Assembly (NCBI RefSeq): GCF_000317555.1
Contig: NC_019745.1
Span: forward strand, 4,030,001-4,094,000
Source: Gloeocapsa sp. PCC 7428
GTDB taxonomy: Bacteria; Cyanobacteriota; Cyanobacteriia; Cyanobacteriales; Chroococcidiopsidaceae
DNA length: 64,000 bases
Direction: 5' to 3'
In this document: positions 1 through 33,023 of the stretch, one piece after another
How the letters are laid out: the number at the start of each line of letters is the position of its first letter
How positions within the stretch are numbered: position 1 is the stretch's first letter
The notes under the pieces: generated by a model
Told to the model about the DNA's origin: nothing
The model's database searches: none
The model's input: the letters and a program-made list of their open reading frames with translations, nothing else
Translations under genes and position numbers: made by a program

Positions 1-943
1 AATAAATATTATTTCCAGCAACCGCAATACCTGCATGACTAATTGCTGTTGGCAAATCTGCTATTCGTTGCCATGCGTTTGTTGCTGGATTATAAACGTG
101 CGATTGCTTGGTTGGAGTGAAAGTATTATCAATATATCCACCAAATACATATAGCTTGTTATTGGCTACAATCCCTGAAGCCTCTGTACGACCAAGCGGT
201 GATGATTTAGCAGAACTCCAGTTAATTTGATTAAAGTCGGGGTTAGGACTGCCAAGCGAGTTCACGCCAAAATAGTCAAACGTGACATCGACTTTCTTTG
301 ACTGACCCGTAAACGCCAAAATGCCAGCGCGGGCGGTGGCACTATTTGCAAACAACGATGCGGCTGCGGCATTGTTTAATTGGACTTGTTGTAGAGTGGT
401 TGGTAAGGCACTATTCGAGTTCACGCGATACGCTGCTGTGAGCGTTTTGGTTTGCGGGTTGCCTGTCAGGTACAAGTCGAGCGTCTGCACGCCTGCCCAG
501 TTTAAACCTTTGATTTCACCAATGCTCGTCCCACTGCCATTTTGTTCGTTGTAGAACTGCAACTTCAAGTCTTTGCCGTCGTTGACAACAACAAGTTTGG
601 CGTAGTTGTCTTGGTCTGAACCGAGAAAGATGCCGCCTTGCTTGTACGCCGCGTTGAGGTTGGTGACGGGTCCTTTGAGCCGCGTACTGATTCTAAATGG
701 CTGCGTGATTGTATCTACCGCTACTTGCAGTGCATTTTTCAGGTTGTTCGCTGCCGCATTGCTGCCTTGCGTTGCGGTTAGCACTAAGCTGCTACTGGCG
801 GTATCGAGATTGATCAAACTCAAGTCATACGCATCGCCGCTGCTGTTCGCTTGCACGGATGTGAACCCTGTTCCGAGTCCATTTTTGTCTGCGACGCTTC
901 CTGGTACTCCTGTCGAAAAATCTAAGCTTAAATATGTGGGCAC
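1..943 (-). CDS. Partial lectin-like/Kelch-repeat surface protein (3' end outside window)
   Basis: The gene starts at a GTG (943-941) preceded 7 nt upstream by a strong GGAGGAG ribosome site (951-957), and it runs off the left edge. The first 230 residues are a jelly-roll (LamG/concanavalin-like) domain almost identical to that of the next gene. Kelch motifs follow (LYVFGGY, then HVYNPATNAW). There is no Sec signal peptide: the domain begins about four residues after the start. From about base 218 to 932 the DNA nearly matches 2477-3191, then the Kelch part diverges. The role is unknown; carbohydrate binding or an extracellular matrix role is inferred from the domain types. Confidence 0.85.
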   Translation of the reverse strand, partial: MPTYLSLDFSTGVPGSVADKNGLGTGFTSVQANSSGDAYDLSLINLDTASSSLVLTATQGSNAAANNLKNALQVAVDTITQPFRISTRLKGPVTNLNAAYKQGGIFLGSDQDNYAKLVVVNDGKDLKLQFYNEQNGSGTSIGEIKGLNWAGVQTLDLYLTGNPQTKTLTAAYRVNSNSALPTTLQQVQLNNAAAASLFANSATARAGILAFTGQSKKVDVTFDYFGVNSLGSPNPDFNQINWSSAKSSPLGRTEASGIVANNKLYVFGGYIDNTFTPTKQSHVYNPATNAWQRIADLPTAISHAGIAVAGNNIY

Positions 944-1036
944 AAATATACTCCTCCGGTCACTTGTACTGCCAGATAGCTGCAACGATGAAAGCTCAAC
1001 TATCAAGCAGCAAACAAAATCGTATCGTAAATGCTG

Positions 1037-3202
1037 CTAACTAGACGCACTTAAGACCTCAATAGCGGCAATAGAGGCAAAGTCTTGTTGTGCAGCAAAT
1101 TGTAAATTGAGTGTTCCATCATTGACTTGAATGCCATTAATCGGCACGACAACCGCATTGAGCGCGCTACCACTCGCGGCAAAGATGTCAAAATTCTTGA
1201 GTACGGTTTGTCCCTCCGCTATCACATCAAATACGCGTTTACCTGCACCACCTGCGGCACGTCCTGGAGCGCCATAGTACAATTCGGCAAAGTGCAAGCG
1301 CACATCAACACTTTGCGGTGCGCCGATGGGTAAGTTCAACGATAATACCCGCGATGCTAAAGGAGTGTTACTCGCGCCGACTTTGCCACGAAAGCTTTGA
1401 TAGAGTGTGTCATCGAGTGTGTTAGCGATCGCTGGGGTGGGATTGAATGGACCGCCGTTGAGCGCGGGTGCCAACTGCGGGTTGAATAGACCAGTATCCG
1501 GCGACCAGGTATTGCCATTACTATCGGTGTATGCTGTGCTGCTGCCTACATTTATCCGATACAGTGTTTGTGCTTTTTGATTTTGCTGATTGTTGATGAC
1601 AGGTGAGCCTTGGAATGACGTTGCACTAAATGCTGGATGTCCACCTGTAAAGAGAATCTTGTTTCCAAAACTTGCGGCAACACCTGCAAGTCGCGCTTGT
1701 GGTAGTGGTGTCAGCGCTTGCCATGTGTTCGATAGTGGGTCGTAGGCTGTGACATCCGCTGAGAACTTTTCATGGGCAAATTCACCACCTGCAACGATGA
1801 TTTTGCCGTCCATCACAAATGTGGAACTCGAAATATGCGATCGCGCTTTAGGTAAACTCGCAACTTCTCGCCACTCGTTAGGATTCGCAGGGTCCCATAC
1901 ATGGACGGAACTTTGGGTGACTAAGTTTTCATCGACACCATGCTGACCACCAATCGCATAAATCTTGCCTCCTAGAACAACATCACCCATGTGCGTACGG
2001 GGATTTGGCAAAGGAGCCGCCGCACTCCAGCTTGTTCCTCCATTTAAATCTAAAGTCCAATGATTGCCTTTGTCTTGACGATTAATATCCGCTCCGCCAA
2101 AGAAATGAAGCTTGCCATTAACGACAGCTAAACCCCCCGATGCCCGCGCTTCGGGTAATGCTGGCATAGGCGACCAAGAATTTGTATCGATGTTGTATTT
2201 CCAAACATCTTGAGTCGCAAAAATCTGTCCTACAGGATCTTTGGCAAGGTAACCACCGGCGATATAGATATTTTTGCCGTCTACCGCTGTTCCAATATGA
2301 TTAACTGGCTTGGGTAAATCTGCGATTTGCGACCATGTATTTGTTTGTGGGTCGTAGACGTCTGATCGAGAGCTAGGTCGCCAACTGCCACTATAGCCTC
2401 CAAATACAAATAACTTGCCATCAGCGATCGCACTTCCTGCCTCAGTTCTGCCTACCGGCATCGCAGCGCCACTACTCCAGTTAATCTGATTAAAGTCGGG
2501 GTTAGGACTGCCAAGCGAGTTCACGCCAAAATAGTCAAACGTGACATCGACTTTCTTTGACTGACCCGTAAACGCCAAAATGCCAGCGCGGGCGGTGGCA
2601 CTGTTCGCAAACAACGATGCGGCTGCGGCATTGTTTAATTGGACTTGTTGTAGAGTGGTTGGTAAGGCACTATTCGAGTTCACGCGATACGCTGCTGTGA
2701 GCGTTTTGGTTTGCGGGTTGCCTGTCAGGTACAAGTCGAGCGTCTGCACGCCTGCCCAGTTTAAACCTTTGATTTCACCAATGCTCGTCCCACTGCCATT
2801 TTGTTCGTTGTAGAACTGCAACTTCAAGTCTTTGCCGTCGTTGACAACAACAAGTTTGGCGTAGTTGTCTTGGTCTGAACCGAGAAAGATGCCGCCTTGC
2901 TTGTACGCCGCGTTGAGGTTGGTGACGGGTCCTTTGAGCCGCGTACTGATTCTAAATGGCTGCGTGATTGTATCTACCGCTACTTGCAGTGCATTTTTCA
3001 GGTTGTTCGCTGCCGCATTGCTGCCTTGCGTTGCGGTTAGCACTAAGCTGCTGCTGGCGGTATCGAGATTAATCAAACTCAGGTCGTACGCATCGCCGCT
3101 GCTGTTCGCTTGCACGGATGTGAACCCTGTTCCGAGTCCATTTTTGTCTGCTACGCTTCCTGGTACTCCTGTCGAAAAATCTAAGCTTAAATCCGCAGCC
3201 AT
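1037..3202 (-). CDS. Lectin-like, Kelch-repeat and malectin-domain protein (721 aa)
   Basis: Three modules are visible. Residues 1-230 are a LamG/jelly-roll type domain (motif GIFLGSDQDNYAKL). Residues about 240-545 are five or more Kelch repeats (KLFVFGGY, SDVYDPQTNTW, KIYAIGGQ). Residues about 570-718 are a malectin-like sugar-binding domain (VDVRLHFAELYYG, KRVFDV). The ATG at 3202 has only a moderate upstream AGGAGTA. No N-terminal signal peptide is seen, although all the modules are typical of exported proteins, so export by a non-Sec route is possible. It is the middle gene of a co-oriented trio. The Kelch part resembles the secreted Kelch protein at 32031. Function is unknown; a cell-surface or sheath glycan-binding role is inferred. 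Confidence 0.9.
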   Translation of the reverse strand: MAADLSLDFSTGVPGSVADKNGLGTGFTSVQANSSGDAYDLSLINLDTASSSLVLTATQGSNAAANNLKNALQVAVDTITQPFRISTRLKGPVTNLNAAYKQGGIFLGSDQDNYAKLVVVNDGKDLKLQFYNEQNGSGTSIGEIKGLNWAGVQTLDLYLTGNPQTKTLTAAYRVNSNSALPTTLQQVQLNNAAAASLFANSATARAGILAFTGQSKKVDVTFDYFGVNSLGSPNPDFNQINWSSGAAMPVGRTEAGSAIADGKLFVFGGYSGSWRPSSRSDVYDPQTNTWSQIADLPKPVNHIGTAVDGKNIYIAGGYLAKDPVGQIFATQDVWKYNIDTNSWSPMPALPEARASGGLAVVNGKLHFFGGADINRQDKGNHWTLDLNGGTSWSAAAPLPNPRTHMGDVVLGGKIYAIGGQHGVDENLVTQSSVHVWDPANPNEWREVASLPKARSHISSSTFVMDGKIIVAGGEFAHEKFSADVTAYDPLSNTWQALTPLPQARLAGVAASFGNKILFTGGHPAFSATSFQGSPVINNQQNQKAQTLYRINVGSSTAYTDSNGNTWSPDTGLFNPQLAPALNGGPFNPTPAIANTLDDTLYQSFRGKVGASNTPLASRVLSLNLPIGAPQSVDVRLHFAELYYGAPGRAAGGAGKRVFDVIAEGQTVLKNFDIFAASGSALNAVVVPINGIQVNDGTLNLQFAAQQDFASIAAIEVLSASS

Positions 3203-3233
3203 GTAGATACTCCTTTGACGCTCGCTTGTGTGA

Positions 3234-6044
3234 TCAACTCACTTTGAGTAGAGAAATCTGCCCTGCAACACCGTCTTTAATGAGTTCTGCAACGTATAAG
3301 TTACCAGCGTTCTTTTTCGTGTCTTCTACAAGATCGAGTGGATCGTTCAATCCTGATATGACTTGCGTGACATTACCTCTAGGAATATTCCCGCTTTCAT
3401 TTGGGTCGAGTGCCAGAATATCGTTACCGCCGCTGTACTGCACAACAAGTAACTTATTTTTCAATGCACCGCCAAAAGTATTGCTTTGGTATTCAATGAC
3501 ACCATTAGGCGATTTGTTCCGTCCGAAATCATAAGCAAAGCCTCGATAGTTGGAATCTGGCTTGATGCCTACAGGATAGCCAGCGTATGCCACCTTAGTA
3601 ACAGGGTCTACGATTCTGACGACCTCAGCGGGGTCAACTCCATTTGTTGGATTGCCACCATTCAGAATGTATTCTCCGCGTTTGGGGTTTGGATGACCGT
3701 AGTAACCACCCTGCACAACTTTAAACAAATAATCGTTTTGGGTACCAACTTTCTGCAAAGCCTCATTTACCGATGTTTTGGGATTATCTGGTGTATTGCC
3801 GTTAGCGCCACTACCATTCGTCGGAACGTATAAGAAACCGTTGCTATGCCAAACTAAGTCATAAGCGTTGCGGATACCTGTTGCATAGATTTTGACGGGC
3901 GCATTGCTTGCAAAGGGATTGTAGTTACCTTGCTTTCCGCCGTAGCTTTCGGTTTGGATGTTAAAGCCACCAGTAGGGGCGTTTCTGTTGGGGTCAATCT
4001 GTAAAATTGCCGCTGTTAAAAGTCGTTCAGGTCGATTTGCCCAGGCGGTATCTGGCGCACCCAAAGCACTATTACTACCTTGCGACAAGTAAAGTTTGCC
4101 GTCTGGACCAAATGCTAGGCTGTTGCTAAGGTGATCTTTTGCCGATCGCGGTAAACCAGTAACGTAGTCTTGGACATTAGCACTAAAAGAATTAGTATTC
4201 TGGTTGAGAACGAGTTTAGAAATTTTGCCAGTAAAGTCTTTTGCTGGCTGCGGGAACAATGGATCGTTATGCGAAATCCACAAGTTATTGGGATTTTTGG
4301 GGTCGAATGTTAAACCAATGATGGCTCTACCATTTAGCTTTGCTGGCGCAAATGTCTGTAAATTAGATAACCTACCCGAACCAGCGTCAATGTTCCAACG
4401 ACGAATCTTACCGTCAAGCCCCGCCGCGTATAATTTACCGTCTGGACCTACGGTTAAGCTTGCTATCGGGGCACCTTGGTAGACCGATTCCTTTGTAAAG
4501 TTAACTCGGAAATCTCTAGGTACAGTAGAAGAATTTCCGGTATTAAAGGTAAAACTTTCTGTATTGAAGCTTGTCCCTGACTCGTCTTTGACTTTGTTTG
4601 TAACGATCAAGGTGTAGTTGGTGTTCGCGTCTAAGTTTTGACTCGGTTGATAGACAATCACGTCATTACCACCGCTTGTTCCAACAAGCCCAGGAACTTG
4701 TTTACCGTCTTTGGTGCGATACAGCTTGACTGTTGAGGAGTTTAAACTACTAGGATCGACCCCTATACCCGATCGCGCCAGCGCCACATCAACATTAATT
4801 GATGTGTTCAGAAAAGCTTTCCCTTGAGGATCGCGATCAACCGCAAATCCTGTAACGTTCGGATGTTTTCCTGGCGTGATATTGAAGATCTCGATAAAGT
4901 TAATTTTGGTGTTGGTTCCGCCGATCGCATCAATCGTTAGCCGACCATCATTGACATTAACTTTGACGGTTTCTAGTTTGTATTCTTGCTGCGGAGTACT
5001 TTGAAATTGATTAATCGCGGTAACGCCTTCGACACGAATCGTGTGTTTGCTGTCATAAACCCCGTTGGGGTTTGGTCCGTCACCGACGCTGACACTCACG
5101 CTGTACATTCCATTCGGAACAGCCATTTCCCACGCCGCCGCTGGACTATTGAAGTACTGCATATGCAGTAAAGTATCAATGCGTTGGTCAACACCAGCGC
5201 GATCGCGATCGCGGGCGAATTGTGCAATATTGAAAGGCGTATTTGTGCCACTTCTTACCCAACCGTAACCACGCGTATTATTAAACGCTGCACCCGTATC
5301 TTTGACATAACCTGATGGCAAATTAGCTGCATCCGGCTGGAAGTTGACTTTTATTTCTTGCGCAATTCCAAACTGATCAAATGCAACCGCAACGTTTGGT
5401 GCATTGCTTGTTGAAGCTAAAATTCCCGCAGTTGTGTTACCCGAATTAGCTAGGAAAAACGGCGTATTTGCCTGAATTTGGGCGGATTGATTGACGACTT
5501 GTGCAGGTGCGGTGTTTGAGTTAACGCGGTAAGCGGCTTTAAAAGTTTTTGTGTCAGGATCTCCGGTTAGATAAAGATCCAGTGTATTAATATTGCTCCA
5601 ATTGAGGTTAGTAATTTCGGCGATGCTTGACCCGACTCCGTTTTCTTCTTTGAAAAACTGAAGCCGCAAGCCGTTAGAACCACCAGTATTAATTAAGACA
5701 AGCTTGACATAGTTATCTTGATCCGAGCCAAAGAAAATACCACCCTGTTGGAAAGCACTCGTAAACTTAGTCGGCGAACCTTTTAACCGCGTATTGATTG
5801 TAAACGGTTTCGTGTCATCAATTCCGCGCTGTAGTGCGTTTTTGAGTGAATTGTTTGCCCAAGCGCTACTACCCTTGGTCGCAGTGAGGGTCAGCGTTTT
5901 CGTAGCAGTGTTAAGGTCAATGTTACTTGGTTGATATTGGTCGCCACTGCTATTAGGCTCTACTGAAGTAAATCCGGTGCCTTGACCATCTTTATCTAAA
6001 ATTGTGTCAGGAAGCGCAAAAGAAAAATCAAGGTTTAGCATCAC
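3234..6044 (-). CDS. Lectin-like, malectin-like, Ig-like and glucose/sorbosone dehydrogenase-type propeller protein (936 aa)
   Basis: The N-terminal 215 residues are a diverged copy of the jelly-roll domain of the two downstream genes (shared GIFFGSDQDNYVKL and LDLYLTGDPDTKT). Residues about 220-385 look like a carbohydrate-binding malectin-like domain (GMYSVSVSVGDGPN). Residues about 390-500 are a Big_5-type Ig-like domain. Residues about 510-930 are a six-bladed propeller of the glucose/sorbosone dehydrogenase (GSDH) type (LTVGPDGKLYAAG, LAFGPDGKLYLSQG, ATGIRNAYDLVW). No signal peptide is present. The gap to the next gene is only 31 nt, so cotranscription is likely. Substrate and enzymatic activity cannot be told from the sequence. 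Confidence 0.88.
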   Translation of the reverse strand: MMLNLDFSFALPDTILDKDGQGTGFTSVEPNSSGDQYQPSNIDLNTATKTLTLTATKGSSAWANNSLKNALQRGIDDTKPFTINTRLKGSPTKFTSAFQQGGIFFGSDQDNYVKLVLINTGGSNGLRLQFFKEENGVGSSIAEITNLNWSNINTLDLYLTGDPDTKTFKAAYRVNSNTAPAQVVNQSAQIQANTPFFLANSGNTTAGILASTSNAPNVAVAFDQFGIAQEIKVNFQPDAANLPSGYVKDTGAAFNNTRGYGWVRSGTNTPFNIAQFARDRDRAGVDQRIDTLLHMQYFNSPAAAWEMAVPNGMYSVSVSVGDGPNPNGVYDSKHTIRVEGVTAINQFQSTPQQEYKLETVKVNVNDGRLTIDAIGGTNTKINFIEIFNITPGKHPNVTGFAVDRDPQGKAFLNTSINVDVALARSGIGVDPSSLNSSTVKLYRTKDGKQVPGLVGTSGGNDVIVYQPSQNLDANTNYTLIVTNKVKDESGTSFNTESFTFNTGNSSTVPRDFRVNFTKESVYQGAPIASLTVGPDGKLYAAGLDGKIRRWNIDAGSGRLSNLQTFAPAKLNGRAIIGLTFDPKNPNNLWISHNDPLFPQPAKDFTGKISKLVLNQNTNSFSANVQDYVTGLPRSAKDHLSNSLAFGPDGKLYLSQGSNSALGAPDTAWANRPERLLTAAILQIDPNRNAPTGGFNIQTESYGGKQGNYNPFASNAPVKIYATGIRNAYDLVWHSNGFLYVPTNGSGANGNTPDNPKTSVNEALQKVGTQNDYLFKVVQGGYYGHPNPKRGEYILNGGNPTNGVDPAEVVRIVDPVTKVAYAGYPVGIKPDSNYRGFAYDFGRNKSPNGVIEYQSNTFGGALKNKLLVVQYSGGNDILALDPNESGNIPRGNVTQVISGLNDPLDLVEDTKKNAGNLYVAELIKDGVAGQISLLKVS

Positions 6045-32030: not shown

Positions 32031-33023
32031 ATGCGCTACTTAAAAAAACAGAGGGTTATGATAGCGTTTATTGTAATTATTTCTGTAGTATTAACTACAG
32101 TTAAATCTTTAGCTGCAACCGAAATTAAATGGACGACAGTTGCACCTTCTCCAGTCGGTACGGGAGAGGCAATGAGTGCGGTAGTTAGTGGTAAATTGTA
32201 TCAGTTAGGCGGATATACTTCTAAGTGGAGACCAACAAATCGTGCTGATGTGTACGATCCAGCAACGAACACGTGGAAACGTCTTGCAGATATACCAATT
32301 AGAATTACTCATGCAGGAGTTGCGGCTGACGCCGGAAATATTTATTTAGCAGGCGGGTATGTTGGTAAACCAGAAGGCGGACAACTATTTGCAACAAGAA
32401 AAGTTTTACGCTACAACATTGCAACGAATACTTGGTCAGAAATGCCACCATTACCACAAACTAGAGGTAGCGGTGGCTTTAGTAATTTGAAACGAGAATT
32501 GCATTTCTTTGGTGGAGCAGATCTTAATAGAATTGACCGTGGCGATCATTGGATACTCAAGCTTGATAATATTGCTGCTGGTTGGCAAACAGCGGCTGTG
32601 TTACCCAATCCACGATCGCACTTAGGAGATGCAATTGTCAACGGCAAGATTTATGCGATCGGCGGGCAGCATAGTTATGATGACTACTTAACGACACAAA
32701 ATAGTGTCCACGTTTGGAATCCTGCAACAAAGCAATGGGCTAAAGTCGCTAATTTACCGCAACCACGCAGTCATATTGGGGCTGCTACTTTTGTTATTAA
32801 TGGAGAAATATATTTAGTGGGTGGCGAGGTTAAACACAAGTCAGCAGTTAATAAGGTAACGGTATATAATCCTAAAACTAATTCATGGCGTGAGTTAACG
32901 CCACTACCGACTAAACGTCACTCTGGTGTTGGAGGTTTTATCAATGGTAGTATCTACTACTCTTCCGGCGCTCCAGCTTTTGATAAAACAGTTTACCGAG
33001 GTAGATTTCAGTTTGTAAGTTAA
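32031..33023 (+). CDS. Secreted Kelch-repeat beta-propeller protein
   Basis: A Sec signal peptide (RVMIAFIVIISVVLTTVKS, cleavage likely after SLAA) precedes about six Kelch repeats (KLYQLGGYTSKWRPTNRADV, NIYLAGGYVG, KIYAIGGQHSYDD, EIYLVGGEV). The protein is a single 330-residue propeller without extra domains. The sequence closely resembles the Kelch part of the 721-residue protein at 1037-3202, including HFFGGADLNR against HFFGGADINR. The role is unknown. It converges on the thioesterase gene with a 9-nt gap. Confidence 0.9.
   Translation: MRYLKKQRVMIAFIVIISVVLTTVKSLAATEIKWTTVAPSPVGTGEAMSAVVSGKLYQLGGYTSKWRPTNRADVYDPATNTWKRLADIPIRITHAGVAADAGNIYLAGGYVGKPEGGQLFATRKVLRYNIATNTWSEMPPLPQTRGSGGFSNLKRELHFFGGADLNRIDRGDHWILKLDNIAAGWQTAAVLPNPRSHLGDAIVNGKIYAIGGQHSYDDYLTTQNSVHVWNPATKQWAKVANLPQPRSHIGAATFVINGEIYLVGGEVKHKSAVNKVTVYNPKTNSWRELTPLPTKRHSGVGGFINGSIYYSSGAPAFDKTVYRGRFQFVS

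Follow-up and report, generated by a model that had tools for sequence, protein, structure and literature searches.

HesF of Anabaena sp. PCC 7120 is described as an exoprotein without an identifiable signal peptide, which accumulates outside the cell in dependence on the TolC-like protein HgdD and has a role in adhesion and aggregation (PMC4390845). In Synechocystis, an ABC (ATP-binding cassette) exporter, a membrane-fusion protein and a TolC homologue (Sll1180-Sll1181-Slr1270) are described as exporting the S-layer protein, which is made in the cytosol (PMC11594277), and tolC genes are reported from all cyanobacterial genomes analysed by the authors of a further study (PMC4894872). How large proteins without a Sec signal are delivered to the cyanobacterial envelope is poorly known. 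Here we describe a locus of Gloeocapsa sp. PCC 7428 that provides a testable set of exporter and candidate cargo: four adjacent proteins, P1 to P4, that share a jelly-roll domain (the head), next to genes for an HlyB-type ABC exporter and a PpiC-type peptidyl-prolyl isomerase (PPIase). The window analysed is a stretch of 64,000 nucleotides (bases 4,030,001-4,094,000 of the 5,431,448-base contig 1); the genome comprises 5.88 Mb in five contigs. We infer the export, its signal and the extracellular role alike from sequence: P1-P4 are probably glycan-binding or glycan-modifying proteins of the envelope that would be exported by the neighbouring type I system.

Four adjacent proteins share a jelly-roll domain

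An initial annotation of the window, made from the sequence alone, had noticed the same jelly-roll domain at the N-termini of three adjacent proteins. Domain matching bore this out, with scores of 396.7, 396.7 and 398.2 bits for heads of 227-229 aa in P2, P3 and P4, all on the minus strand. The count was short by one: P1, also on the minus strand, lies to the left of the window and carries its copy (354.7 bits) further along the chain. P1-P4 hold the only matches of the head domain in the host genome. Their genes, P4, P3, P2 and P1, are separated by intergenic gaps of 31, 93 and 100 bases and form an operon-like set. The likely start of P2 is the GTG at window position 943, which has a GGAGGAG-type site, and not the upstream TTG; that of P4 is most likely the ATG at 6041.

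The C-terminal modules had been described as swapped among the proteins. This holds for P4, in which the head is followed by a weakly galactose-binding-like region, Big_5 and GSDH, and does not hold for P2, which is cut by the window edge and has the same order as P3 (head, Kelch, malectin). P1 consists of a choice-of-anchor-D-like part (below the cut-off), an unnamed domain, the jelly-roll and then malectin. Malectin scored 62-66 bits in P1-P3 (Pfam cut-off 23), and Kelch_1 scored 116 bits in P2 and 126 in P3, above the Pfam cut-off. The Ig-like and GSDH modules first assigned to P4 were recovered as Big_5 (30.4 bits, Pfam cut-off 23.6) and GSDH (28.2 bits, cut-off 25). The label "malectin-like" for the middle of P4 found no support, the sole match there being the galactose-binding-like PF21254 at 19.7 bits, under its cut-off of 27. 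P4 modelled as a single structure gave a poor result (pLDDT 58.4), which was not used.

An AlphaFold2 model of the head, built from 26 related sequences, was nearly all beta, with a pLDDT of 90.5. The best matches in a structure search with this model were GH43 xylosidases (5z5d, E 7e-9), whose matching part we take to be their ConA-like domain. The small structures 3o12 (TM 0.75, normalised by target length) and 3mep, presumably both DUF1349 proteins, were also found. The model thus predicts, with high confidence, that the head is a ConA-like jelly-roll. It would have the same fold as DUF1349 and the C-terminal ConA-like domains of GH43 proteins (PF07081, PF17851), but it falls below the Pfam cut-off for these (E 4e-4 to 2e-3 for DUF1349) and stands apart as a sequence group, with invariant residues of its own.

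The N-termini show no recognisable Sec signal

Signal peptides were assessed with a home-made scan, which takes the best 12-residue hydropathy within the first 45 residues, and by eye. As the initial annotation had claimed, no signal peptide was seen in this way at the starts of P1-P4 or in the in-frame DNA upstream of them. The hydropathy was -0.13 to 1.10 in P1-P4, -0.20 to 1.17 in 15 head proteins of five close relatives from the same and the sister genus (G102, G017, G119, G085, G067), and 0.39 to 1.07 in seven head-bearing proteins of a third genus. Three Sec-type controls from the host genome scored 1.8 to 2.25. Four homologues from metagenome-assembled genomes (MAGs), namely L061 and L062 of a Gloeobacterales MAG and L064 and L068 of an Aphanocapsa MAG, scored 1.89 to 2.97 and have visible signal-peptide N-termini. 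Three planctomycete homologues gave 0.05 (L066), 1.17 (L067) and 1.85 (L063), values that do not settle their route. The N-termini of L063 and L067 resembled the LEPR-XLL motif; the NCBIfam scan listed no such match, and the label was dropped.

A short hydrophobic in-frame stretch upstream of P4, seen here and in G085, would be expected if the starts were mis-set and true Sec signals lay upstream. A stop codon overlapping the ribosome site closes that stretch and is present in 6/6 genomes of two genera, and the stretch itself is broken by a stop in three of the six. In-frame stops also stand 2 to 13 codons before the starts of P1 and P3, and the TTG extension of P2 is too little hydrophobic (1.10). 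Since in-frame stops precede any usable signal, Sec signals upstream of the called starts were rejected, and we regard mis-set starts as scarcely credible. PEP-CTERM sorting needs a Sec signal, and the C-termini of P1-P4 have no hydrophobic-basic tail; this kind of sorting was set aside. Inspection by eye revealed no C-terminal motif common to P1-P4 and other cargo.

An HlyB-type exporter and a PPIase are encoded beside the cargo genes

The initial annotation had proposed an unusual export route and a search for type I secretion genes to the left of the window. Such genes are present about 4-7.6 kb left of the window (Table 1), and they largely answer the export puzzle raised in that annotation. 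In the C39-like domain of the exporter, T, W and N are aligned with C, H and D of the genome's intact C39 exporter (L123), which we take to be the catalytic Cys-His-Asp. The exporter should therefore not cleave leaders, and export of the leader-cleaving C39 (PCAT) kind was rejected.

Table 1. Coordinates of the features discussed. Plain numbers are window positions; L009 is the stretch that overlaps the window and lies to its left, and L009 coordinates are counted on it. P1 is the leftmost and P4 the rightmost of the four proteins.
Feature	Position	Strand or orientation	Description
P1	L009:10171-12684, left of window	-	837 aa; jelly-roll at residues 421-660
P2	1..943, continuing left to L009:12785	-	~719 aa from GTG 943; head 251-931, Kelch type A, malectin outside window
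P3	1037..3202	-	721 aa; head 2510-3190, Kelch type B ~1607-2509, malectin ~1091-1564
P4	3234..6041	-	935 aa; head 5352-6038, galactose-binding-like 4827-5348 (sub-threshold), Big_5 ~4539-4760, GSDH propeller ~3681-4460
Predicted ConA-like jelly-roll head of P3	2510..3190	-	protein-identical to P2 head; AlphaFold2 model
HlyB-type ABC exporter	L009:7355-10012	convergent to P1, 158 bases away	885 aa; TIGR01846 801 bits, cut-off 726
PpiC-type PPIase	L009:6440-7198		directly before the ABC exporter
Orphan HlyD	C1:4278800-4280335		above TIGR01843 cut-off; ~253 kb from exporter
Stand-alone Kelch paralogue	32031..33023	+	330 aa; Sec-type N-terminus; ~30 kb from P1-P4

The gene order dnaE, P4, Kelch protein(s) and P1, convergent with ABC and PPIase, is kept in all five close relatives (5/5). 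Two genomes of the third genus (2/2) keep P1 convergent with ABC and PPIase, and their P4-type (GSDH) and Kelch members lie elsewhere. A membrane-type protein of 611 aa near the PPIase-ABC genes (L009:3830-5665), which has no Pfam match and looks by eye like a GT-C glycosyltransferase, also has its gene near the pair in six relatives; it was not found in the G119 stretch.

Four HlyB-type exporters with a C39-like part are encoded in the host genome, and a PpiC-like PPIase is present in each of the four loci. The other three exporters (L121, L122, L123) have an adjacent HlyD. The presence of the PPIase at all other C39-type loci suggests that it is a standing partner of type I export. Among the matches listed in the literature search, none joined parvulin or PpiC with type I secretion. 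The surroundings of the PPIase were also inspected at 20 loci in other parts of the order; at 13 of them it is adjoined by an HlyB-type ABC gene whose product matches the present exporter with at least 1,175 bits. Nine large neighbours, chosen by eye and not at random, were scanned against Pfam. Eight have a PPIase-ABC pair no more than about 2.1 kb away. PPC occurs in five of these, together with a subtilase in three, with a calpain domain in one and by itself in another; two more are subtilases that lack PPC, and one resembles an RTX phytase. The ninth is a calpain that also has cadherin-like domains, and the PPIase beside it has no exporter. Hydropathy was scanned in eight of the nine and was at most 0.94 in all eight, which marks them as signal-less.

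A distant HlyD co-occurs with the PPIase

No HlyD gene lies beside this exporter. Close orthologues of the orphan HlyD and of the PPIase were counted in a survey of 388 genomes of the host's order, with limits of E up to 1e-120 for HlyD and up to 1e-85 for the PPIase. HlyD was found in 97 genomes and the PPIase in 98; 92 had both, 6 the PPIase only, 5 HlyD only and 285 neither (Fisher p 6.5e-75, a value that ignores kinship and depends on a limit chosen after the list was seen). A recount by eye at a limit of 1e-80 gave 95 with both, 15 with the PPIase only and 2 with HlyD only. Because PPIase matches become near-universal (374/388) at a looser limit (E up to 1e-15), only the close PPIase group is linked to HlyD.

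The two genes share a contig in 50 of the 92 genomes that have both and lie at most 20 kb apart in 22, where about 0.8 would be expected by chance. The 22 genomes span 11 genera in 5 families; a single genus (g90) accounts for ten of them. In G197, a member of the window's own family, the distance is 12 kb. Co-occurrence and proximity in other genomes suggest the orphan HlyD as the likely partner of this exporter.

In the mechanism that we propose, P1-P4 would leave the cell unfolded and in one step, through a machine made up of the neighbouring ABC exporter with its degenerate C39-like domain (no leader cleavage), the PPIase, the distant HlyD and a TolC-type channel as predicted partner. The ConA-like heads and malectin would then serve on the outside as anchors that tie the Kelch and GSDH propellers to envelope polysaccharide.

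Several observations weigh against this mechanism, and some of them speak for P1-P4 reaching the outside by another exporter, by vesicles or by lysis, the neighbouring locus serving other cargo. The cargo genes are convergent to the exporter and outside its operon. Besides being far from the exporter, HlyD is not near the PPIase in the host genome or in the five close relatives. RTX repeats (HemolysinCabind) had no match in any of P1-P4, no export signal was recognised in them, and P4 ends where its Sec-type homologue L062 ends, with no extra C-terminal tail. The isoelectric points of P1-P4 (5.8-8.6) are not acidic like those of four RTX-/Calx-type neighbours of other exporters (4.05-4.27). 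The three further C39-type exporters could serve as well, and G226, of the third genus, has a second P1-type gene (L052) without an HlyB-type exporter beside it. Seven of the 20 PPIase neighbourhoods, all with more distant PPIases (266 to 304 bits), had no HlyB-type exporter. The hydropathy scan is crude, as an RTX-like host protein without a visible signal scored 1.96. Against another route, the third genus keeps the exporter beside the P1-type gene though the GSDH and Kelch members lie elsewhere, and two of the other three exporters have RTX-/Calx-like proteins of their own at 0.1 kb and about 2 kb, the third having an RTX-like protein at about 5-6 kb (all recognised by eye). We therefore consider another route unlikely and prefer export by the neighbouring type I system.

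Cysteine content argues for an extracellular place

P1-P4 contain no cysteine in 3,234 residues, compared with about 31 expected (p 2e-14) from 34 non-overlapping window open reading frames of at least 150 aa with 0.97% Cys. In this total P2 was counted from the TTG. With broken copies left out, cysteine is likewise absent from 15 proteins of the relatives (0/12,473) and from five of the third genus (0/3,954), which brings the head-bearing proteins of the host's family to 24, with no Cys in 19,661 residues. The Sec-type homologues (3/3,791) and the planctomycete homologues (2/6,486) have nearly as few. Because both groups of homologues are almost as poor in cysteine, its absence argues for an extracellular place and not for one particular route.

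The initial annotation had also allowed for an action on internal glycans. If P1-P4 stayed in the cytoplasm and acted, for example, on glycogen, they would need no Sec signal, and none is recognisable. Three findings disfavour this: the 24 cysteine-free proteins, the Sec-type N-termini of four homologues that span two domain lineages, and a Kelch paralogue with a Sec-type N-terminus in the same window. A cytoplasmic place appears very improbable to us, and the extracellular reading is retained below.

A possible change of export route

The head domain is rare. Of the 388 genomes surveyed in the order, 8 contain it (E up to 1e-10), and a pattern-limited search of a named genome collection gave 11 loci, in Gloeocapsopsis and relatives, the Gloeobacterales MAG, the Aphanocapsa MAG and planctomycetes. 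A phylum-wide search added no further genome, its 2 hits in 386 both being already known. The incomplete genome G232 contains several broken head-bearing copies (L055, L056, L058, L059), which reflect either decay or sequencing error. In a midpoint-rooted tree, the head domain splits into two main lineages with supports of 0.996 and 0.998; support is weak (0.60 to 0.79) at some inner nodes. One lineage is joined to the P1-type N-terminus and the other to GSDH or Kelch. Each lineage holds Sec-type members plus signal-less members from the host's family, and both lineages occur in one chain in L061 (Gloeobacterales). No PPIase or HlyB-type match was found within the 12.8-16.5 kb around each of the four Sec-type homologues.

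The propeller of the stand-alone Kelch paralogue shares 52% identity with the P3 propeller and 47% with the P2 propeller. The protein is kept at 85-92% in the five relatives (6/6 genomes of two genera), its Sec-type signal was read in 5/6, and at that limit the other matches among 195 genomes were head-bearing proteins only. In G232, a head-less Kelch protein of 399 aa (L057:12335-13534) lies beside a P1-type gene and the exporter; it is 49.5% identical to the stand-alone Kelch and has no clear signal at its called start.

These distributions suggest that a switch from Sec to type I export probably preceded the present route of P1-P4. We infer the direction of this switch; the alternative is that signals were gained elsewhere. 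More tentatively, and with rather more doubt than confidence, we propose that two paralogous lineages of an extracellular family went over, in parallel, from Sec export in two steps to type I export in one, without gaining an RTX repeat or a C-terminal tail. On this proposal Sec export was kept in the Gloeobacterales and Aphanocapsa genomes and in the stand-alone Kelch. If it is true, beta-sandwich or propeller proteins of an ordinary kind can carry a type I signal within the chain, for which the shared jelly-roll head is a possible site, and the PpiC-type PPIase would be a standing chaperone of cyanobacterial type I export. Like Kelch propellers with and without a Sec-type signal form a natural pair in one genome, and homologues that differ in the N-terminal signal and not in fold would allow the type I signal to be mapped by comparison.

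Propeller types and predicted function

The Kelch propellers are of two types, 53-58% identical: type A in P2 and the proteins of G102, G017 and G119, and type B in P3 and the proteins of G085 and G067. A truncated type B gene remains in G119 as well. Over 227 codons, the heads of P2 and P3 (L009:14252-14932 and L009:16511-17191) are separated by 7 changes, all of them silent (99.0% DNA identity), and the identity of either head to full-length relatives is 74-87%. The malectin parts of P2 and P3 share 93.7% with each other and 76-89% with relatives. In G119, the two copies agree at 96.4% in the head (55 codons) and at 97.3% in malectin, compared with 86-89% to G102 and G017. It is the Kelch part alone that has remained distinct between copies. 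The flanking head and malectin thus look homogenised by gene conversion, independently in two lineages, around two old and distinct propellers.

A histidine of the GSDH propeller aligns with one of the sugar-dehydrogenase-like 2ism (weak match, E 0.006). This His and a downstream Arg are invariant in 11/11 aligned sequences, and we presume that they correspond to catalytic residues of soluble glucose dehydrogenase. A sugar-oxidising role of the P4 propeller is possible. Taken together, the modules suggest binding, and perhaps modification, of envelope polysaccharide.

Other features of the surroundings

About 27-34 kb left of the window (L010:104-7436) lies a possible cluster for beta-glucan or cellulose synthesis, with two similar glycoside-hydrolase-like proteins, a DUF3131 protein and a GT2-like synthase, whose roles were assigned by eye except for DUF3131. 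To the right of the window (L011:8679-15913) is an exopolysaccharide-type cluster of glycosyltransferases and acetyltransferases, also assigned by eye. Rfam and tRNA scans of the window found nothing, and promoter and terminator scans gave no more matches than shuffled sequence.

Comparison with known systems

The initial annotation had singled out these proteins as a candidate for an undescribed surface or sheath system. This stands for the cargo family, which looks undescribed in the searches made, and not for the machine, which is of a known kind with clear cyanobacterial precedents. No literature joining cyanobacteria, malectin and Kelch was found in the searched literature, outside which most subscription journals lie. 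By its description HesF is, like P1-P4, an exoprotein without a signal peptide. It differs from them in that the P1-P4 cargo combines ConA-like, Kelch, malectin and GSDH modules and has an exporter gene adjoining. The cargo of Sll1180-Sll1181-Slr1270 is an S-layer protein, whereas here it would be four modular proteins of glycan-binding type, and a long distance separates the HlyD and ABC genes. With the HlyB/HlyD haemolysin type the locus shares an ABC protein above the family cut-off and a C39-like domain without catalytic residues. Unlike that type, P1-P4 have no RTX repeats or recognised C-terminal signal, and a PpiC-type PPIase gene stands next to the ABC gene. What looks new in these searches is the cargo family, together with the split HlyD and an apparent change of route.

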